From Dehalococcoidia bacterium (GTDB taxonomy: Bacteria > Chloroflexota > Dehalococcoidia > GIF9 > AB-539-J10), in NCBI GenBank assembly GCA_030610855.1, contig JAUWQY010000001.1:65628-129627 (forward strand): a stretch of DNA of 64,000 nucleotides, read 5' to 3'. Shown piece by piece: positions 9,256-50,323 of this stretch. A program made the translations under genes and the position numbers. The notes beneath the pieces were generated by a model that did no database searches, had not been told where the DNA came from, and saw nothing but the letters and a program-made list of their open reading frames with translations. Positions within the stretch are counted from its first letter, which is position 1. Each line of letters begins with the position of its first letter.

Positions 9256-10332
9256 ATGCACATAGATGAGCTTCTCGCGCTGATGGTGAACAGAGGTGCT
9301 TCAGATTTGCACCTCACGGTGCCAAGCCCGCCGGTGCTCCGTGTTGACGGCGCACTGGTACCGCAGAGGGAGTTGCCACCCGTGACAGCTAAAGATGTTG
9401 AGCTCGCCTTGGAACAAGCTGCTAGCGAAGAGCAGAGGTCAGTTTTCGCTAGAGAATGGGAGCTGGATTTTGCCTACTCTGTTCCCGGGTTAGCCCGATT
9501 CCGGGTCAACGCATTGCGACAGAGAGGTGTGATCAGCCTGGTCTTCCGGTTTGTGCCATTTTATGTTCCGTCCATTGATGAGTTGGGACTACCCCAAATA
9601 TTCAAGGAGCTTGTACTTGGGCCAAGAGGAATTATCCTGATTACAGGTCCTTCTGGCAGCGGTAAGTCGACTACTCTAGCAGCGATGCTCAGGCATCTTA
9701 ATGAGAATGCAACGAAGAATGTTATTACTATTGAGGACCCTATTGAATTCTTATTCCGCAACAAAGAATGCCTCATCCACCAGCGAGACCTGGGGGATGA
9801 CACCAGATCGTTCGCCACCGCAGTAATACACGCCCTTCGCCACGATGCGGATGTAATCGTTATCGGGGAAATGCGCGACCTGGATACGATAGGTACAGCA
9901 ATCACAGCGGCTGAGACGGGACACCTGGTGCTTGGCACCCTGCATACCGTCGACGCTCCCCAGTCTATTGACCGCATCATCGACGTATTCCCTCATGGTC
10001 AGCAACAGCAGATTAGAGTACAATTGTCACAGGTAATAGAGGCGGTAATATCACAAGCTCTCCTCCCCCGCATTGATGGCGGGCGAATAGCCGCATTTGA
10101 AATAATGCTGGCCAGCCAAACGATCAGGAAATATATTCGTGACGAGAAGATCTTCGAGATACCTGTTACCATGGAGGTGAGTAGACCAGAGGGGATGCAG
10201 ACTCTGGATCAGGCGTTGACTGATTTGGTAAAGAGGAAGCTCGTAACGCTAGAAGACGCCTTGATCAAAAGCAGGGATCCGGCAAAAATGCAGCGGTCTC
10301 TTCAATCCCAGGGTGAAGCAGCCACATCGTGA
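9256..10332 (+). CDS. pilT: PilT-family type IV pilus retraction ATPase
   Basis: Hexameric secretion ATPase of the PilT/VirB11 superfamily. The N-terminal PAS-like domain opens with the PilT signature ASDLHLTVPSPPVLRVDG. The catalytic domain has Walker A GPSGSGKST near residue 130, an Asp box, the HALRHDADVIVIGEMRD Walker B region and LGTLHTVDAPQSIDRIIDVFP. The AIRNLIRE motif of classical PilT is recognisable only as the variant TIRKYIRDEKI. The track's TTG start (9241) is replaced by the ATG at 9256. No pilin, pilB, pilC or pilM-Q gene is nearby. The following genes are signalling proteins, so it may serve motility regulation or a remote pilus locus. Confidence 0.9.
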   Translation: MHIDELLALMVNRGASDLHLTVPSPPVLRVDGALVPQRELPPVTAKDVELALEQAASEEQRSVFAREWELDFAYSVPGLARFRVNALRQRGVISLVFRFVPFYVPSIDELGLPQIFKELVLGPRGIILITGPSGSGKSTTLAAMLRHLNENATKNVITIEDPIEFLFRNKECLIHQRDLGDDTRSFATAVIHALRHDADVIVIGEMRDLDTIGTAITAAETGHLVLGTLHTVDAPQSIDRIIDVFPHGQQQQIRVQLSQVIEAVISQALLPRIDGGRIAAFEIMLASQTIRKYIRDEKIFEIPVTMEVSRPEGMQTLDQALTDLVKRKLVTLEDALIKSRDPAKMQRSLQSQGEAATS

Positions 10333-22013: not shown

Positions 22014-22976
22014 TCAGCGCCGCCATCGGTCATTCTTCGCCGCGATTTCATCGGGGCGAAGAATCTCTACGGGAGAAGCCCCGTCCAGGCGGCTCAGCCC
22101 TGCTTCCCGGGCCAGGGACGATGCTTCACGAAATTCCGTCGATGATATTGGCCGCGCTAAGCTGGGCGTTTGAAAAGCCCTGTGGCAGGGACGGTATTGG
22201 GCCATGATATTGACATAGGTACTGGGAGAAATCTCTTTGCTGAGGAAATCCACTATCCCCTTTGTCCCCGCCAGACCGTGTGGCAAGACGAGGTGGCGGA
22301 CCAGAAGCCCCCGCCGGGCCACCCCCTCTTCGTCTATCTCCAGGTCGCCTACCTGTCGATGCATTTCCTTGATTGCTGCCTTGTTTATCGCAGGATAGCT
22401 TTCGATGCCCGATAACTCTCCTGCAATCTCTTCATCGTCATACTTCATGTCGGGCATATAGATATCGACAATGCCTTCAAGCATCCTCAAGGTCTCCACC
22501 GAATCATAGCCACCGCTGTTGTATACCAGGGGGAGATACAGGCCCGACTCCACCGCTAGCTTCAGTGCCTCCAGGATTTGAGGAACCACATGGGTTGGGG
22601 AAACGAGGTTTATGTTGTGGCATCCTGTTGCCTGGAGCGAAAGCATGATATGGGCCAGCTCTTCTTTGCTCACTTTCTCGCCTCCACCTAGCTGGCTAAT
22701 GGAGTAGTTCTGGCAGAAGAGACATCCAAGGTTGCAGTTAGTGAAGAATATCGTACCCGAGCCACGTCTGCCCACTAACGGGGCTTCCTCCCCGAAGTGA
22801 GGTCCATAGCTGGACACCATTGCTTCGCGGGCCGTGCTGCATTTGCCTGCATCGCCAGCCAGACGATTGACACCGCAACCGCGAGGGCAAATGGAACAGC
22901 TTTCAAGCAAAGATACAGCCGCCTCTACCCGTTCCCCTAGCCTGCCGCTATGGCAAAGCTCCAAGTAAGCTGCCAA
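22014..22976 (-). CDS. Radical SAM protein, PflA-like (COG1313 type)
   Basis: A 320-aa radical SAM enzyme with the cluster motif CNLGCLFCQNY near residue 85, preceded by a second cysteine set (CSICPRGCGVNR and GDAGKC) typical of the group annotated as uncharacterised pyruvate-formate-lyase-activating-like proteins. VYNSGGYDSVETLRMLEG and IYMPDMKY are family landmarks. It starts at a TTG shortly after the small basic gene. The target protein is unknown, and no glycyl radical enzyme is in the window. Confidence 0.88.
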   Translation of the reverse strand: MAAYLELCHSGRLGERVEAAVSLLESCSICPRGCGVNRLAGDAGKCSTAREAMVSSYGPHFGEEAPLVGRRGSGTIFFTNCNLGCLFCQNYSISQLGGGEKVSKEELAHIMLSLQATGCHNINLVSPTHVVPQILEALKLAVESGLYLPLVYNSGGYDSVETLRMLEGIVDIYMPDMKYDDEEIAGELSGIESYPAINKAAIKEMHRQVGDLEIDEEGVARRGLLVRHLVLPHGLAGTKGIVDFLSKEISPSTYVNIMAQYRPCHRAFQTPSLARPISSTEFREASSLAREAGLSRLDGASPVEILRPDEIAAKNDRWRR

Positions 22977-30100: not shown

Positions 30101-30132
30101 CCTTACCTCCGCCCTTAAGGGCCGAGGTAAGG
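30101..30132 (+). terminator. Hairpin after the lipoprotein gene
   Basis: Nine-base arms CCTTACCTC / GAGGTAAGG enclose the inner palindrome CCCTTAAGGG. It lies nine bases after the stop. No T-run follows directly, so it may protect the mRNA end or work with the next hairpin. Confidence 0.55.
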
Positions 30133-30144
30133 TCATGTTGTATC

Positions 30145-30176
30145 ATTGCGGGTCCCGACTTCTCGGGGCCCGCAAT
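30145..30176 (+). terminator. Rho-independent terminator
   Basis: A 14-base stem with one mismatch (ATTGCGGGTCCCGA / TCGGGGCCCGCAAT) and a CTTC tetraloop, followed by CTCGTTT. It is the strongest terminator seen in the window and closes the lipoprotein gene. Confidence 0.75.
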
Positions 30177-42866: not shown

Positions 42867-42907
42867 CCATTGGACAAACATCGGGATGTTTGCCCTTTCA
42901 CGCGTAT
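42867..42907 (+). repeat. Attachment-like repeat 1 (outer left junction)
   Basis: Arms GGACAAACATC and GATGTTTGCCC form an inverted repeat (10 of 11 positions) around a central GG (42883-42884), followed by the element-type arm CTTTCACGCGTAT. On the minus strand the left half reads as the DnaN tail P-M-F-V-Q-W plus stop, identical to the tail of the present dnaN. It looks like the chromosomal left junction of serial integration at the dnaN 3' end. Confidence 0.8.
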
Positions 42908-43251: not shown

Positions 43252-43295
43252 TATCAACTGGACAAACGTCGGCATGTCTGCCCTTCCACGCGTAT
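43252..43295 (+). repeat. Attachment-like repeat 2
   Basis: GGACAAACGTC - GG - CATGTCTGCCC, centre at 43271-43272, followed by TTCCACGCGTAT. It matches repeat 1 over about 40 bases with few differences. The minus-strand left half reads P-T-F-V-Q-L and continues without a prompt stop, unlike the other copies. Confidence 0.8.
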
Positions 43296-43313: not shown

Positions 43314-44186
43314 TTACAAAGCATTGTTTAGGTCAATGTCCAAACCTGAGGCTTTCAATTCTTTGGCTAACGAGAGCCGCCAAGCTCCAGATGCATCAAG
43401 AGGTATGTATACGACTCCTTGAAAATCCGAGGGCAACTCGACACCCTCGGTATAAAGAGCGCATACTTTTTTTCTGCCGAGCAGTCCAATAAAAAAGCCT
43501 AACTCGAATACAACGTTCTGACGAGCTCGTGGCTTCAGTGTGGAAGTATCTGTGATTGGGGACGCTTTGTCATCAGGGGTAAGCAAGACGACCGAGAAAG
43601 CCACGGGTGACGTGCGTTCAAGCTTCTCGATTATCGTATCACCGAGGTTTGGTTGCTCATGTAAGATTATTGGGTTGAGGTTCAACTTCGTCAAGTAGCG
43701 TGCAACAGTCTCTTTGACACCATGGTCTGCCCCATGCACTAAAAAGACTTCTTTTATGGTCGGTGCGGCGTGCTCGGCTGGCGTAGGTGAGATAGCTCTT
43801 GGAAGTCCGGACGGTTCAGGGTAAAGAGGTAGACGTTCTTTTATTGACTCAAGCCTTGTTATGTGAGTAAGAATCTCCCCGGAAAGTGCTTCGATTTTCT
43901 CGCGTAAACTGGAGGCAGCGAAGGAAACGGCCCAAAAACTGTACTCTTGGGACAGCTCGTCAGAGTCAAACATTCTTCGCAGAAGCTCTATATTAAATTC
44001 GTGCCATAGCTTGTGGTTGTAGTCAACTCTTGCGTAATCTTGACTGGTGCTCATAGTCTTGGGAAGAAGGTCTTTTCCTGAGTCAATTCTGGATGCTAAT
44101 TGCTCAGCAGCTTTTGACCTAGATATTGTTAAATTAGGTGGCTGTGATTGTGTTTGCTGATTTGATATGGTGCGTTTTGGTGTCAT
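43314..44186 (-). CDS. Cassette B: TIR-like nucleotide-binding effector (PF10137 type)
   Basis: 290 aa. The C-terminal 145 residues match the predicted nucleotide-binding TIR-like family: VFLVHGADHGVKETVARYLT, then ILHEQPNLGDTIIEK, VVLLTPDD and RARQNVVFELGFFIG, where the Glu in FELGFF is the candidate NADase residue. The N-terminal 140 residues are helical and unassigned. Members of this family act in prokaryotic anti-phage defence, some as TIR effectors depleting NAD. It lies just inside repeat 2 and is AT-richer than core genes. Confidence 0.82.
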   Translation of the reverse strand: MTPKRTISNQQTQSQPPNLTISRSKAAEQLASRIDSGKDLLPKTMSTSQDYARVDYNHKLWHEFNIELLRRMFDSDELSQEYSFWAVSFAASSLREKIEALSGEILTHITRLESIKERLPLYPEPSGLPRAISPTPAEHAAPTIKEVFLVHGADHGVKETVARYLTKLNLNPIILHEQPNLGDTIIEKLERTSPVAFSVVLLTPDDKASPITDTSTLKPRARQNVVFELGFFIGLLGRKKVCALYTEGVELPSDFQGVVYIPLDASGAWRLSLAKELKASGLDIDLNNAL

Positions 44187-44351: not shown

Positions 44352-45188
44352 TTATTTTGCTTTAGACCAGTTCTTGTTGATAAGCTTGTAGTCACTAACT
44401 GGTAAAAAGGAGACTTTGCCATTATTGTTGAAGAATCTTGAAAACGCACCAATAACGTGGTGCTCAATCCTTCTTAATGAATGATGGTAATCTGGGTGGA
44501 TAATTTCATATCTGAAAATATCCCATCCAGGGATTTCCGGACGTCCGATTCTAACCCGATCGCCTAATGTCTCTGCACTTCCTATGTATATTTCCTTTTT
44601 TGTTTGATCAATCAGATAATATATTACATACCTTGCGTCCGCATGTTTCAATAGATCTGTAGACTTATACCATGGGGTTGACTTAGTAATAAGATAATCA
44701 CGGTTCGTTTTACTCAGCCACCCAAAAACATTCTCTTCAACTAAGCGTTTGAAAATGCTGTCATAGGGAGTGTTTATTTGGATGAACGTCTCCAGGTCAA
44801 TTTCGGTAGAATTAATGGGTTTGAATACTAGTACTTCTTGATTGCCTGCAAGTAAGTCAGTGATATAATATTTCCCTTCGATTTTGAATTGATAACTGCG
44901 GCTTTCGATTGCCAAATAACTCTGAATGAATTCCTTTTTAAGCTCAAGTAGAAGATCAGAGTTGCCATCCCATCGTAATTGGTAAGGTTGAGTAGCGTTC
45001 TTTATAGCAACATGGGTTAATTTGGCTTTGAAAGTCATATGTTTCTTAGGCCAATGGAGTTTTACATCACGAGATTCTCCTGATTTTAAAGGTTGCCCTT
45101 GAGTAAAATCGTTAACATATTCCTTTGGTATGGTTGTACCATAACGGAAAATGGATTTATCAATCTTTTTATAGAAGTTCATACGCAT
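44352..45188 (-). CDS. Cassette B: protein with C-terminal GIY-YIG domain
   Basis: 278 aa. The C-terminal 100 residues carry a GIY-YIG nuclease pattern: VIYYLIDQT, then IYIGSAETLGDRV and a following HH-rich helix. The first 170 residues (FRYGTTIPKEYVNDF, then FKAKLTHVAIKN) form an unrecognised, probably beta-rich domain that may recognise DNA. It is low in GC and lies directly inside repeat 3. With the TIR-like gene it makes a two-gene cassette in one orientation. A nuclease acting on foreign DNA is a reasonable inference only. Confidence 0.7.
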   Translation of the reverse strand: MRMNFYKKIDKSIFRYGTTIPKEYVNDFTQGQPLKSGESRDVKLHWPKKHMTFKAKLTHVAIKNATQPYQLRWDGNSDLLLELKKEFIQSYLAIESRSYQFKIEGKYYITDLLAGNQEVLVFKPINSTEIDLETFIQINTPYDSIFKRLVEENVFGWLSKTNRDYLITKSTPWYKSTDLLKHADARYVIYYLIDQTKKEIYIGSAETLGDRVRIGRPEIPGWDIFRYEIIHPDYHHSLRRIEHHVIGAFSRFFNNNGKVSFLPVSDYKLINKNWSKAK

Positions 45189-45222
45189 TAACCACTACTA
45201 AGTATTCGATATTCCTTTAATC

Positions 45223-45260
45223 TCGAACGAAGATCGGGATGTTTGCCTTTCATGGGTATA
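45223..45260 (+). repeat. Attachment-like repeat 3
   Basis: GAACGAAGATC - GG - GATGTTTGCC, centre at 45236-45237, followed by TTTCATGGGTAT. The right arm matches repeats 1 and 2 with one base missing; the left arm is more diverged. The minus-strand left half reads P-I-F-V-R-D plus stop, a third version of the DnaN tail. Confidence 0.7.
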
Positions 45261-45321
45261 TTTGGTTATTACCTTTCGATTTTACTGTTAGGTCGGTATA
45301 AACGTGTCTGATACCGGAAAA

Positions 45322-45984
45322 TCAAGCGGGGAACCTGGCGACGAAGTCTCGTATTCCTAGTAGTGCTACCTTAACTTGTTCATCAGTGTACTCAGTATAT
45401 TTACCGTGAGCCGCCTTGTTACGGAGGTCAAGCCAAGCAGTAATACTCTTTTGGTCTAGACGATTGTACACATTCGAATTGGTGAGGTCTGCATTCATCG
45501 CATCTGCCTTTTTGAAACGGTCATTTGTTTTGATGTTGATTGAGTTTTTCAGGCAAAGCTTCCTTAGATGTTCCTCTAAAACACCACCGCTAATAACAGC
45601 AGGGGGGTCTTTATAGCCTTCTTCCAATAGATACTCGCCCATGTCAAGGAAATCGGCGAATAGGTCAGCGCGTATCAATTCCTCAATCTGATGTAGGTAT
45701 CCAGATTCATATGCAGTTCTTAATGCTTCAACGATACCGACTAAAGTCGGAATGGCATAACGGCTATTAAGACCCTGCGTTTTTATGACAGCCTGCAAAC
45801 TTGTATAGTAGTATGTTCCAGTGGGGGCAAGACGTTCTATAGCTGCAACTAAAGATGTATATACCTCGGTTTGTTTAGCTGCTGAGCTACTAGGCAAAGT
45901 TTCAGAATCAGGGCCTCTGATTTCTTTGTATCTATCTAGTACTTGTTCAAGTTGCTGAATAGGTGATGGTTGGGTTACAGTCAT
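45322..45984 (-). CDS. Cassette C: HEPN-like protein
   Basis: 220 aa, soluble, mostly helical. The C-terminal half contains GGVLEEHLRKLCLKN, then ITAWLDLRNKAAHGKY, whose R-N-x3-H is the HEPN ribonuclease/nucleotidyl-binding motif. HEPN proteins act as RNases in abortive-infection and toxin systems, though many are inactive. It is divergent from the recombinase operon and has its own extended -10 promoter. No partner nucleotidyltransferase was found. Confidence 0.68.
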   Translation of the reverse strand: MTVTQPSPIQQLEQVLDRYKEIRGPDSETLPSSSAAKQTEVYTSLVAAIERLAPTGTYYYTSLQAVIKTQGLNSRYAIPTLVGIVEALRTAYESGYLHQIEELIRADLFADFLDMGEYLLEEGYKDPPAVISGGVLEEHLRKLCLKNSINIKTNDRFKKADAMNADLTNSNVYNRLDQKSITAWLDLRNKAAHGKYTEYTDEQVKVALLGIRDFVARFPA

Positions 45985-46035
45985 CTTAGTTAACTCCCGC
46001 TAGTTTGGCATTATTAACAGCTGAACTTCACATAA

Positions 46036-46044
46036 TTGATTATA
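46036..46044 (-). promoter_or_regulatory. Extended -10 promoter of the HEPN-like gene
   Basis: On the minus strand TGTTATAAT (TGn plus TATAAT) lies about 50 bases upstream of the ATG at 45984. The -10 hexamer covers 46039-46044. No good -35 is visible. Confidence 0.5.
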
Positions 46045-46093
46045 ACATAGCTTCAGGACAACAGCTTGCCTGGGTGCTAGAATAGCTCAAGGC

Positions 46094-46362
46094 ATGGAGA
46101 AGAACGGGGAATTAACAGAAGCTCTGAAAGCCATCAAGAATGTAGCGGAAAACAATTCATGGTTTAGAGACACTCCTCATTATTGGGCAGAAGCGTCGTT
46201 GCCTTTGGCTTATGCGGTGGCGTGTGTTGAAGTGGTTTCCGAAATGTCAGACAAAGCCGGCTACTCACTTGGTTGATGCGGCTATCGCTATGGGCGCAAA
46301 AATTGTGTCGGTTGATATTGGGAAAACTCCGGTATCCCGTAAAAAGGGTATTGACAAAGAAT
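46094..46362 (+). pseudogene. Small possibly frameshifted gene in cassette C
   Basis: A 60-codon ORF (MEKNGELTEALKAIKNVAEN) stops at 46276. The +1 frame around the stop then reads a protein-like 33-residue segment, PATHLVDAAIAMGAKIVSVD, ending at 46362. Joined by one frame change they would make a roughly 95-aa protein. I do not recognise either part. The -35 box of the next promoter overlaps the end. Confidence 0.4.
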
Positions 46363-46391
46363 GAAGATAGTAGTACTATATAGTAATACTA
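46351..46391 (+). promoter_or_regulatory. Promoter with overlapping 24-bp palindromic operator (cassette C operon)
   Basis: TTGACA (46351-46356), a 17-base spacer and TACTAT (46374-46379). A palindrome of 22 matching positions in 24 (half site TAGTAGTACTAT) covers 46368-46391, that is, the -10 and start point. It would drive the coiled-coil, HNH and recombinase genes. A dimeric repressor binding here would shut off recombinase production; none of the cassette genes is an obvious repressor. Confidence 0.7.
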
Positions 46392-46445
46392 TTAAGTATA
46401 TACGAGTGTAGTAATATTATTCGCAATAAAAGGGGGTGAATTTTT

Positions 46446-47051
46446 ATGGATAACACGCAATTAGCTAAGTGGAAGAGAGAGATGGAAATGCAATTGGCTG
46501 AAGTTGAGAAACAACTGACAGGGATAGAAAAGGAGCGAGCCGCACTTAAGGCGAAACTGGGAGCAGTTACAACACTACTTTCTCCAGCGGAAGAAATAAC
46601 TGCAATTGAAAATTATGAGGCAAGAGACCTTATAGGTGCGTTCATAGCAGATTTGAAAGTGAATGGCTGGTCTGTTGGGAAGCATGGAGGGAAAATTAGG
46701 AGCTATGACGCGAACCGAGGCGGTCAAAGTGTTGAACTGTGGATAATATTCAGTAAACTTCACGAAGTAAGCGAACGATATTGGTTTGGTGTGAATCCAG
46801 ACCATCTTGAAAATAGGAATGGCGGGGTTATCTTGCTACTCGGTACTCACAAGAAGTACATTTGCTTGCCGTTTACTAAACTACAGGAGATACTGGAAGG
46901 TTCAAAGAACACGAGAGCTGGCCACAAATTATTCCATGTAAGGCAGAAAAGCGGGCAAGTCGAGCTCCAGCCTGCAGGAATCGGCGGGAAATGGATAAAT
47001 GTTACCGCGTACTTAAATGGGGAAGGGCTAAAGAGAATTGGTATTAACTAA
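46446..47051 (+). CDS. Cassette C: coiled-coil protein of unknown function
   Basis: 201 aa. Residues 1-50 form a clear coiled coil (KREMEMQLAEVEKQLTGIEK), followed by a globular part with YWFGVNPDHLENRNGGVILL and ICLPFTKLQEILEG. It starts at ATG 46446 behind AAAGGGGGTGAA. It is first in the recombinase operon, so it may be a recombination-directionality or DNA-binding accessory, but that is only position-based. I do not know the family. Confidence 0.65.
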   Translation: MDNTQLAKWKREMEMQLAEVEKQLTGIEKERAALKAKLGAVTTLLSPAEEITAIENYEARDLIGAFIADLKVNGWSVGKHGGKIRSYDANRGGQSVELWIIFSKLHEVSERYWFGVNPDHLENRNGGVILLLGTHKKYICLPFTKLQEILEGSKNTRAGHKLFHVRQKSGQVELQPAGIGGKWINVTAYLNGEGLKRIGIN

Positions 47052-47075
47052 GACCAAGAAGGAAGTAAATAGAAA

Positions 47076-47156
47076 ATGATGAAAGTAGCTGTCTACTGCC
47101 GTGTGAGTACTGAAGGTCAAGAACGGGACGGAATAAGCCAAAATGGAAGGGGGTGA
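47076..47156 (+). pseudogene. Remnant of a second serine recombinase (first 20 codons)
   Basis: The 26-codon ORF begins MMKVAVYCRVSTEGQERDGI, matching the start of the full recombinase at 47625 (MKAAIYCRVSTEGQEQDGT), including the catalytic Ser. After IS the match ends and the frame stops at 47156. The DNA is about 80 percent identical over 60 bases. It is either the remnant of an earlier recombinase or the upstream piece left when the HNH gene inserted. Confidence 0.8.
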
Positions 47157-47160
47157 AGAG

Positions 47161-47610
47161 ATGAAACACTTGAAATTAGCGATAGAGCTCGTTCCAAAGA
47201 CATCCTGGTATAACAATCTCAGGAACAAGATGAGCAGTGATAATTGGAATTTCATCCGTGAACGTACATATGACTCATATGGAAATAAGTGTGGAATCTG
47301 TGATGCTAAGAATACTAGGCTTGAATGTCATGAAATATGGGAATATGACGATGAAAACCACATTCAGACTTTGAAAGGTTTCATTGCTCTCTGTCAGATG
47401 TGCCATCATGTTAAGCACATAGGATTAGCAGGTATATTAGCTGACGAAGGAAAATTAGATTATGACGCGGTAATAGAACATTTCATACGGGTAAACGGCT
47501 GTGATAAGAAGGATTTCCTAAACCATCGTGAGAAAGCCTATGAAATATGGGAGAAAAGGTCTAAGTATAATTGGACAATCGATTTAGGACAATTTCGAAA
47601 TCTTATTTAA
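47161..47610 (+). CDS. Cassette C: HNH endonuclease
   Basis: About 149 aa with an HNH/ββα-metal fold: KCGICDAKNTRLECHEIWEY holds the first Cys pair and the histidine, and FIALCQMCHHVKHIGLAG completes the zinc site. HNH proteins of this kind occur as homing or mobile-element nucleases. The gene lies exactly between a 20-codon recombinase fragment and the complete recombinase, and uses a GAAGGGGGTGAAG ribosome site. The ATG at 47161 is preferred over the track start at 47143. Confidence 0.82.
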   Translation: MKHLKLAIELVPKTSWYNNLRNKMSSDNWNFIRERTYDSYGNKCGICDAKNTRLECHEIWEYDDENHIQTLKGFIALCQMCHHVKHIGLAGILADEGKLDYDAVIEHFIRVNGCDKKDFLNHREKAYEIWEKRSKYNWTIDLGQFRNLI

Positions 47611-47624
47611 GGTGAGAAGTAACT

Positions 47625-49157
47625 ATGAAAGCCGCTATCTATTGTCGTGTGTCAACTGAAGGTCAAGAACAAGACGGGACAAGCCTGCAAACTCAGCTTG
47701 AAGCCTGTCGGAAGTATTGCGAAACTCGACGGTATGAAGTCGGGTATGAGCTTAGCGAAGCTTGGTCGGGACTGTCACTCGAACGTCCTAAGCTGAATGA
47801 GCTTAGGGATATGGTGCGCTCGGATCAGATAGACACGGTAGTTGTATACAGCCTTGACCGCTTCTCCCGTGACCCTGTGCATGGAGTCATTCTCATGCAG
47901 GAACTTGAAAAGCACGGAGTTACTTTGGAAGCGGCTACTGAAACCGTAGATAATTCGGAAGTCGGCAAGCTAGTGTTCTACATCAAGGGCTATGCGGCTA
48001 AGTTGGATGCTGAACGGCGGCGGGATGCTACTGGACGTGGTAAGCAAGCTATGTTAAAGAGTGGCAAGCTGCCACAAGGGACTGGCATAGGTATCTATGG
48101 CTATCAGTGGATTAAGGAATACAAGAAGCGCATACCATTGGAGCGAGAAGCTAGGGTAGTCAAGAGAATGTTTGAAATGGTTGTTAATGGCAATGGCTGT
48201 TTTAAGATAGCTCGGACTCTGAATGAGGAGGGTGTACCAACAAAGTCCGGTAAGAAATGGGAAGCTCGTACGGTAAGCAGGATAGTTCGTAACCCTGCGT
48301 ATATGGGCATAACATATTTCGGTCAAACTTCGGGCAAGAATCGCGAAAAGAAGCCTCAAGAATCCTGGTACGTTCTACCTGATGTAACTCCTGCCGTTAT
48401 CAGCAAAGAACTGTTTGAACGGGCACAGGCTGCTCTGGCTAAGTCAAAGGAACTGCATCCAGGCAAGGCAAAACATGAATACCCGCTAACTGGTTTTGCG
48501 GTCTGCGGGTATTGTGGAAGCCCGTTAGTGGGAAGTTGCCTGAGGGGCGACTATCGATACTATCATTGTCGTGGTACACACCCGACTGCGTCGCGACAAA
48601 AGATATGCGATGCTCGGTACATCCGGGCGGAATGGCTTGAAGGTGTGGTATGGGAAAAGGTGAAAAGTGTCTTGTGTTACCCTGAACTGCTCATGGGTGA
48701 AATAAGCAAGCAAAATGAAGTTGAACAAGCCTGGGTTTCAGATGGCACGATTGACCAGGAAATAAAGGCTCTCAATCGGAAGCTCAAACAATATGCTGGT
48801 CAGGAACGGCGGCTTATGCAAGCGTTCAAGCTCGGTTTTACGCCTGATGTGGTCATGGACGAAATGAACCAAACCAAGAAGGAAAAAGAATCTGACCAGG
48901 TGCGGCTGGCTTCTTTGATTCAGACTAAAGAGAACATTGCCAAGATGGGCGATTATGAAGGGAAGCTGAAGGAGTTATGCGCTAGAATAGTTCCTGATTT
49001 GGACAACTGCACAAACCAGGATAAAAAGGATGCCTACACCTACATGGACTTGAGCGTTACGGCTACGCCGGAAGGGGTGGACATCAAAGGATACCTTAAA
49101 CCAGACGTGATTCAGGCTGATTCGTACGTACTCACCACTGGACAAACATGGGCATGA
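47625..49157 (+). CDS. Large serine recombinase of the dnaN-integrated array
   Basis: 510 aa. The resolvase catalytic domain has YCRVSTEGQEQDG (nucleophile Ser), DTVVVYSLDRFSRDP and AERRRDATGRG. Next come the recombinase domain (IARTLNEEGVPTKSGKKWEA), a zinc ribbon (VCGYCGSPLVGSCLRGDY with a distant Cys set) and a long coiled coil (IDQEIKALNRKLKQYAGQER), the layout of large serine integrases. The last codons (TTGQTWA) are encoded by attachment repeat 4, and the TGA lies in the dnaN 3' end, so the gene converges with dnaN over 26 bases. It probably mobilises the flanking cassettes. Confidence 0.93.
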   Translation: MKAAIYCRVSTEGQEQDGTSLQTQLEACRKYCETRRYEVGYELSEAWSGLSLERPKLNELRDMVRSDQIDTVVVYSLDRFSRDPVHGVILMQELEKHGVTLEAATETVDNSEVGKLVFYIKGYAAKLDAERRRDATGRGKQAMLKSGKLPQGTGIGIYGYQWIKEYKKRIPLEREARVVKRMFEMVVNGNGCFKIARTLNEEGVPTKSGKKWEARTVSRIVRNPAYMGITYFGQTSGKNREKKPQESWYVLPDVTPAVISKELFERAQAALAKSKELHPGKAKHEYPLTGFAVCGYCGSPLVGSCLRGDYRYYHCRGTHPTASRQKICDARYIRAEWLEGVVWEKVKSVLCYPELLMGEISKQNEVEQAWVSDGTIDQEIKALNRKLKQYAGQERRLMQAFKLGFTPDVVMDEMNQTKKEKESDQVRLASLIQTKENIAKMGDYEGKLKELCARIVPDLDNCTNQDKKDAYTYMDLSVTATPEGVDIKGYLKPDVIQADSYVLTTGQTWA

Positions 49158-49158
49158 T
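49132..49158 (+). repeat. Attachment-like repeat 4, inside the dnaN 3' end
   Basis: GGACAAACATG - GG - CATG, centre at 49151-49152. The left half matches repeats 1 and 2; the right half is dnaN coding sequence. The centre falls in the Pro codon of the DnaN end IMPMFVQW. This is the junction between the array and the chromosome. Confidence 0.8.
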
Positions 49159-50265
49159 TACGTGAACATAGTTGTCCACGCCTATGGGGCGGATGGTGCC
49201 GGGGCTCGAGGGGGTAGTGACTTCCAGGGCGACCTGAGACTGGTGAAGGACAGATAAGACCTCGGAAAGGTATTTTACATTGAAGGCGATCTTCGCCTCT
49301 TCTCCGTCGACAAGAGCGTCGATTTCACCGACATTGTCGCCGATTTCCTCGGCCTGGGCAGAAACGGTTACCTTGCCGGGGGTTAGTTCAGCACCCGGCG
49401 TGATGACCAGGCGCACTATGCCGCTGGCGTCGCGAGCAAATACGGAGGAGATCTTGGCAACGCGCATAAACTCACTGATGTCCACTACAGCCCGCGTAGT
49501 GTAGCTTTGAGGAATAACCTGAGAGTAGTTGGGGAAGGAACCTTGAAGAAGCTGCGAGACTATCTCGGCATCCTTGAGGCGGAACAGCACCTGGCTCTTC
49601 TGTTCGTTTACGGTGATTTCCACGGGTTCCTCCTGCTCGCCGAGAAGTCGATTCACCTCATTGAGGACCCTGGCCGGGATGATTACCGAAGTCTCTGCAA
49701 TTACCGGCGAGCCCAGAGTCATCTTATGGACAGCCAGCCTGAAGCCATCGGCAGCCACCAGGTTGAGCTGGTCGCCAGCAAATTCAGTGTTAATGCCCGT
49801 CAGTACTGGGCGCGATTCCTCTGTGGCAGCAGCAAAGGCGACGTGTGCAATCCCTTCCCTGAGGCTGGCTGCTTCAATGGTAGTAGTCACACCGTCGCTT
49901 ATCTGAGGGATAGGCGGGAAGTCCGCGGCATCGATGCCGTTGATATGCGCCTGAAAACGGCCGCACTTAAGCTCCAGGATGCGACCGGTAGCGGGAAGGT
50001 TGATCTCAACTAAGTCATTGGGCAAGGAGTTAACAAAGTCGATGAGCAAGCGAGCAGGCACGGTTATGCTGCCTTCCTTTTTGACTTTTGCACCAACCCA
50101 GTAAGTGGTAGCCATTTCCAGGTTGGTGGCTGCCAGTTTGAGACGCGACTGCTCAGCGGACAGAAGGATATTCTGAGTGATAGGCAAGGTGGACCTTGCG
50201 GCTACGGCTCTCCCTACAGCGTTCAGTCCTCTATTCAGGTTCTCTTGAAGACAAGACAATTTCAT
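49132..50265 (-). CDS. dnaN: DNA polymerase III sliding clamp (beta subunit)
   Basis: 377 aa, three clamp domains. The start is MKLSCLQENLNRGLNAVGRA at the ATG 50263-50265 with GGGAGGTG; the track start, 14 codons earlier, overlaps the promoter region. The C-terminus IMPMFVQW corresponds to the MPM(R/L) end of clamps such as E. coli (VVMPMRL, by memory), which forms part of the protein-binding cleft. The last five codons and stop lie in the attachment repeat and are probably supplied by the integrated element. No dnaA or recF nearby. Confidence 0.96.
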   Translation of the reverse strand: MKLSCLQENLNRGLNAVGRAVAARSTLPITQNILLSAEQSRLKLAATNLEMATTYWVGAKVKKEGSITVPARLLIDFVNSLPNDLVEINLPATGRILELKCGRFQAHINGIDAADFPPIPQISDGVTTTIEAASLREGIAHVAFAAATEESRPVLTGINTEFAGDQLNLVAADGFRLAVHKMTLGSPVIAETSVIIPARVLNEVNRLLGEQEEPVEITVNEQKSQVLFRLKDAEIVSQLLQGSFPNYSQVIPQSYTTRAVVDISEFMRVAKISSVFARDASGIVRLVITPGAELTPGKVTVSAQAEEIGDNVGEIDALVDGEEAKIAFNVKYLSEVLSVLHQSQVALEVTTPSSPGTIRPIGVDNYVHVIMPMFVQW

Positions 50266-50294
50266 GAAACACCTCCCGCCATGTATGTAGTGAA

Positions 50295-50323
50295 AGTATA
50301 CTATCAAGAACTGTAATAATCAA
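50295..50323 (-). promoter_or_regulatory. Promoter of dnaN
   Basis: On the minus strand TTGATT (50318-50323) and TATACT (50295-50300) are separated by exactly 17 bases, about 30 bases upstream of the dnaN ATG. The rest of the spacer to 50573 contains no recognised feature. Confidence 0.65.

Follow-up and report, generated by a model that had tools for sequence, protein, structure and literature searches.

The segment from 46351 to 46419 of the window (the whole 64,000-nt stretch of DNA that was analyzed; Dehalococcoidia bacterium GCA_030610855.1, JAUWQY010000001.1, 65,628-129,627 forward, from a genome here called G000) is likely to be the promoter of ORF1 with a built-in three-site operator for a dimeric repressor. 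The palindromes in this promoter very probably form a real repressor site, one that serves ORF1 rather than the recombinase gene further downstream. Three 11-bp sites of the form TAGTnnnACTA (S1, S2, and S3) span the -10 element, the start site, and the leader, and we infer that they are bound by a protein that represses transcription. In the proposed mechanism, a dimeric DNA-binding repressor would fill S1 and S2 jointly and thereby occlude RNA polymerase, with S3 in the leader contributing cooperativity or acting as a road-block, and the recombinase would be affected only indirectly, by read-through.

The promoter and its palindromic sites

A promoter scan of positions 45000 to 49400 returned TTGACA-17-TACTAT as the top sigma-70-like match (10 of 12), pairing TTGACA with a TATAAT-like hexamer at a distance within the 16 to 18 bp of sigma-70 promoters. 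The 17-bp spacing is invariant across the three ORF1 promoters, that of the window and those of two related genomes (G019 and G039). The palindrome over the -10, TAGTAGTACTAT/ATAGTAATACTA, is symmetric in 11 of its 12 pairs, that is, in 22 of 24 positions, and one further A:T pair extends it to 46367-46392 (24 of 26). A previous sequence-only reading had described this promoter and the overlapping 22/24 palindrome, and direct inspection of the letters agrees with it in both respects. Transcription is predicted to start near 46385-46387, within S2.

Features of the ORF1 promoter region in the window, with counterparts in related genomes
Feature	Position	Strand	Remarks
-35 hexamer TTGACA	46351..46356	+	Invariant in all three ORF1 promoters
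24-bp near-perfect palindrome (S1 + TA + S2)	46368..46391		Overlies the -10; core TACTATATAGT invariant
S1 TAGTAGTACTA	46368..46378		Counterparts TAGTATTACTA (G019), TAGATGTACTA (G039)
-10 hexamer TACTAT	46374..46379	+	In left half of palindrome; invariant in all three ORF1 promoters
S2 TAGTAATACTA	46381..46391		Counterparts TAGTAGCGCTA (G019), TAGTTATGCTA (G039); S1-S2 13 bp in all three
S3 TAGTAATATTA	46409..46419		In the leader; counterparts TAGTAATACTA (G019), TAGTTATACTA (G039)
ORF1	46446..47051	+	201 aa; N-terminal coiled coil and globular domain; sole gene common to all operator loci
HNH endonuclease gene	47143..47610	+	phrog_5200, E 4e-39; between ORF1 and recombinase; possible downstream transcript member
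Large serine recombinase, 510 aa	47625..49157	+	PF00239, PF07508, PF13408; possible downstream transcript member

Two 24-bp palindromes with at most one bad pair occur in the 64-kb window, the second, at 30105, being G+C-rich. Of 20 first-order Markov versions of the window, 2 held such a palindrome, as did 4 of 400 Markov versions of the local AT-rich 2.5 kb; a chance origin is unlikely at the promoter spot itself and possible somewhere in 64 kb. As the window holds more than one palindrome this good, conservation was needed as a test of chance. The only others of comparable quality in the window are two strong G+C-rich inverted repeats lying close together at 30101-30176 (30105-30128 and 30147-30174) and one at 22035.

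The palindrome is better split into two 11-bp palindromes TAGTnnnACTA (TAGTANTACTA), the second starting 13 bp after the first. The sequence-only reading had missed a further, imperfect 11-bp copy in the leader, S3. The three sites stand before ORF1 in identical order in all three genomes, with S1-S2/S2-S3 spacings of 13/28 bp in G000 and G019 and 13/26 bp in G039. Across the nine sites (three in each genome), pairs 1/11, 2/10, and 3/9 are symmetric in nine, nine, and eight cases, respectively, and the outer TAG and CTA bases show one variant in 54 cells, the inner positions being freer. TAGTANTACTA has two occurrences in the entire 1.63-Mb G000 genome, both at the ORF1 promoter. Markov versions of the leader reached as many exact TAGN5CTA sites as observed in 0.1% of cases for the window and in 0 of 20,000 for G019 and G039; with one mismatch allowed, the excess over Markov leaders is weak (3-9%).

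S2 and S3 could pair as RNA, as would be expected if the leader transcript contained a hairpin or riboswitch-like element. We regard such an element as extremely improbable, given that the predicted start lies inside S2, which would then not be fully transcribed, that the leader folds no better than its shuffled versions (z 0.18), and that no Rfam match was found for it. The lack of both an RNA fold and an Rfam match favors a signal at the DNA level.

Conservation of the operator with ORF1

Among 84 genomes of the order, ORF1 has two relatives, one in the same genus (G019, 89% identical) and one in another family (G039, 42% identical). Scanning GTDB at one genome per species returned the same two only, recorded as Chloroflexi and Dehalococcoidia metagenome bins, and none beyond these was found in viral contigs, phages, plasmids, or 400 genomes of the phylum. 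The comparison of the window with G019 is uninformative on conservation because the palindrome (20 of 24, or 83%) matches to nearly the same degree as the decayed DNA upstream (184 of 218, or 84%), and G039 is the sole deep comparison. Between G000 and G039, whose upstream DNA is unrelated, the -35 is identical at 6 of 6 positions and the palindrome at 20 of 24, against 2 of 11 in the spacer, so that in this single deep comparison a palindrome lying over a promoter is kept beyond the neutral background. G039 retains TTGACA, the 17-bp spacing, TACTATATAGT, and the TAG and CTA at the outer ends, together with each of the three sites. The sequence-only reading had placed a repressor site on the -10 and suggested a search for the palindrome in related arrays; its persistence beside an ORF1 of 42% identity and a diverged spacer is a distant phylogenetic footprint that gives the proposed repressor site good support. 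The full 24-bp symmetry is lower in the relatives (9 of 12 pairs in G019 and 8 of 12 in G039).

Invariant columns concentrate at the -35, TAG, TACTATATAGT, CTAT, S3, and the ribosome-binding site. The -10 falls within the most conserved core, TACTATATAG is AT-rich, and the whole window yields a second palindrome of equal symmetry, all of which would suit a merely strong AT-rich sigma-70 promoter in which a TATA-rich -10 would produce the palindrome incidentally and the conservation would be that of the promoter alone. However, conservation extends beyond the hexamers to TAG at 46368-46370, to the AGT that follows the -10, to CTA at 46389-46391, and to S3, which lies ∼30 bases 3' of the -10, and exact TAGN5CTA counts like those observed are rare in Markov leaders. 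A promoter without an operator is therefore distinctly unlikely.

In the class, 3 of 393 genomes have the pattern TTGACA-16/18-TACTATATAGTNNNNCTA, invariably upstream of ORF1, and none has its reversed control; a single viral match lay inside coding sequence and was taken as chance. Two TAGTnnnACTA sites within 30 bp occurred, among the 84 genomes of the order, only at the ORF1 promoters of G000 and G019, with the reversed control giving three genomes, which is the chance level. No regulon of the tandem site was visible in the G000 genome or in the 84 genomes of the order, and this points to a dedicated regulator.

The description of this region as a recombinase operon promoter was misleading, since the operator follows ORF1. 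No recombinase was found within the 16 kb examined near the operator of G039, that of G019 is an N-terminal fragment of ∼50 residues next to a retained operator, and intact recombinase relatives in related genomes have no operator upstream, which together argue that the promoter and operator belong to ORF1 and not to the recombinase. The HNH endonuclease gene was likewise not found at the G019 or G039 locus. The plus strand showed no terminator-like site from ORF1 to the end of the recombinase gene, so a transcript that runs on into the HNH gene and the recombinase gene is a plausible prediction.

The same loci bear on the idea that the operator is a recombination or resolution site (res- or att-like) at which the serine recombinase would also repress its own gene. 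Tn3-type resolvases repress themselves through res sites overlapping promoters, and a serine recombinase gene does lie downstream in the window. The operator nevertheless occurs with no recombinase within 16 kb in G039 and with only a fragment in G019, it is missing upstream of the intact relatives, and the attachment-like repeats of the island (42874, 43262, and 45227) differ from it in both sequence and place. As the site neither accompanies the recombinase nor resembles the element ends, we consider a recombination site very improbable.

Between G000 and G019, dS is 0.156 for ORF1 (dN 0.056) versus 0.74 for dnaN (49132-50307), a difference suggesting that the ORF1 module is probably younger than the host split and has been exchanged laterally within the genus. 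Just upstream of the promoter, both genomes carry a decayed, frameshifted coding remnant (window 46094-46330 and L025 of G019 9353-9569; 84% identical), and the -35 sits at its end.

The surroundings resemble an array of serine-recombinase cassettes located at the 3' end of dnaN. Direct repeats around ACAAACATCGGGATGTTTGCCC (window 42874-42907, 43262-43295, and 45227-45259) separate minus-strand defense-like genes (TIR, GIY-YIG-like, and HEPN) and resemble the recombinase 3' end at 49134-49157 beside dnaN; similar repeats are present in relatives (L025 7208 and 8263; L029 11465 and 14345). The recombinase gene 5' end is also repeated, flanking a single gene, at 47079-47139 and 47625-47685 with the HNH gene between them, and at L025 10288-10333 and 11007-11052 in G019 with an unrelated gene between them. 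That the same repeats enclose different cargo suggests that genes have been inserted or exchanged at the 5' end of the recombinase gene itself. Recombinase fragments beside dnaN or cassette repeats (L025 11007-11148 in G019; L027 215-394 and L029 10978-11193 in G003 and G017) appear to be remains of older insertions in the genus. The recombinase itself is CcrB-like by NCBIfam, at 135 bits against a cut-off of 900, and showed no viral match.

The candidate regulator

Our leading candidate for the repressor, held tentatively, is ORF1 itself. Autorepression would be the simplest reading because no gene other than ORF1 was found at all three loci and the site shows no regulon, with the operator present at 3 of 3 ORF1 loci and nowhere else in the genomes searched. 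The sequence-only reading had named a HEPN-like and a coiled-coil protein among the possible repressors; the first is not found at the G019 and G039 loci, and only the coiled-coil protein, ORF1, is present at all three. It had seen no obvious repressor gene in the array, whose proteins match TIR, GIY-YIG-like, HEPN, HNH, and recombinase families, none of them a repressor. The small ORFs of the island have no DNA-binding domain match either.

ORF1 gave no match to an HTH, RHH, or other DNA-binding domain in Pfam, NCBIfam, PHROGs, or PADLOC. Its structure models are poor (pLDDT 52 and 56), with no Foldseek match at an E of <0.001. A nuclease-like fold (weak hits to I-Ssp6803I and Hjc; best E 0.04, full-length model) was discarded when the model of the globular domain did not repeat it.

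The absence of a known DNA-binding match in ORF1 favors a repressor or activator that is encoded elsewhere in the host chromosome and binds the same operator, and element promoters are often silenced by host factors. Against such a regulator, no second target of the tandem site was found in the genome or order, the four other TAGTnnnACTA sites of G000 lie in or beside genes without an evident repressor (among them the body of a NusG-like gene and the start of a transposase-like gene), and the host lexA promoter has GTTCTATAGAAC instead. We judge a host-encoded regulator to be somewhat unlikely and retain ORF1 as the favored candidate.

A TIR-type gene lies near ORF1 in the window and in G039 and was not found at the G019 locus. 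In G039 (L042 2348-3340), this TIR-domain gene (PF10137, PADLOC candidate PDC-S35) is divergent to ORF1. Another member of its family stands at 43314-44186 in the window array, and a functional pairing of the TIR gene with ORF1 is possible.

The ORF1 operator would represent a modest, real, and new operator on a rare cargo gene, and our search of the literature on serine-recombinase cassette arrays and Dehalococcoides regulators returned nothing on it. The way in which uncultured Chloroflexota regulate defense cargo and serine recombinases has received little attention, and an operator this short and well delimited, with a single candidate regulator, lends itself to direct testing in Escherichia coli. 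If ORF1 is the repressor, an orphan protein family would gain a function; if not, the site can serve as bait for the regulator. A bolder proposal, which we consider unlikely, is that ORF1 is the first member of a new coiled-coil autorepressor family that lacks any known DNA-binding domain and belongs to the cargo of serine-recombinase defense islands in Dehalococcoidia, and that it sets the expression of the island recombinase via read-through. The surrounding recombinase island may merit more attention than the operator.

Relation to known systems

As in staphylococcal cassette chromosome (SCC) elements with Ccr recombinases, a large serine recombinase is found here at the 3' end of a housekeeping gene (dnaN) together with defense cargo. 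The low score of the recombinase to CcrB sets the two apart, and the likeness concerns the setting and not the operator.

The LexA box is, like the ORF1 operator, a palindromic repressor site on a promoter, and the operator sequence resembles the LexA box of Xanthomonadaceae, TTAGTAGTAATACTACTAA. The promoters of the lexA-like genes carry GTTCTATAGAAC in G000 and GAACAAATGTTC in G039, which are GTTC/GAAC palindromes with no TAGN5CTA, and the ORF1 site is not one common to the host lexA promoter and SOS genes. LexA was rejected as the regulator on account of this other motif and of the tandem site having no visible regulon.

C-boxes, the sites of the controller (C) proteins of type II restriction-modification systems, are similar to the ORF1 operator in layout and setting, in that a short operon linked to defense has a pair of palindromic dimer sites at its promoter or close by. 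C.Kpn2I binds 3' of the transcription start, where it forms a road-block, and the EcoRV C-box has also been described (PMC6237814). The C.Kpn2I road-block offers a possible parallel for S3. C proteins are, however, small HTH proteins encoded directly downstream, whereas the gene directly downstream here, ORF1, has no HTH match; C-box half-sites also differ from those of the ORF1 operator, and ORF1 has no methylase as a partner.

Autorepressed promoters of toxin-antitoxin and phage-immunity modules likewise have tandem operators over the -10 and start, although ORF1 matches no toxin-antitoxin or repressor family. In those modules, the first gene of the operon is the regulator, as we propose for ORF1, and by this analogy the ORF1 operator would behave like many autorepressed promoters.
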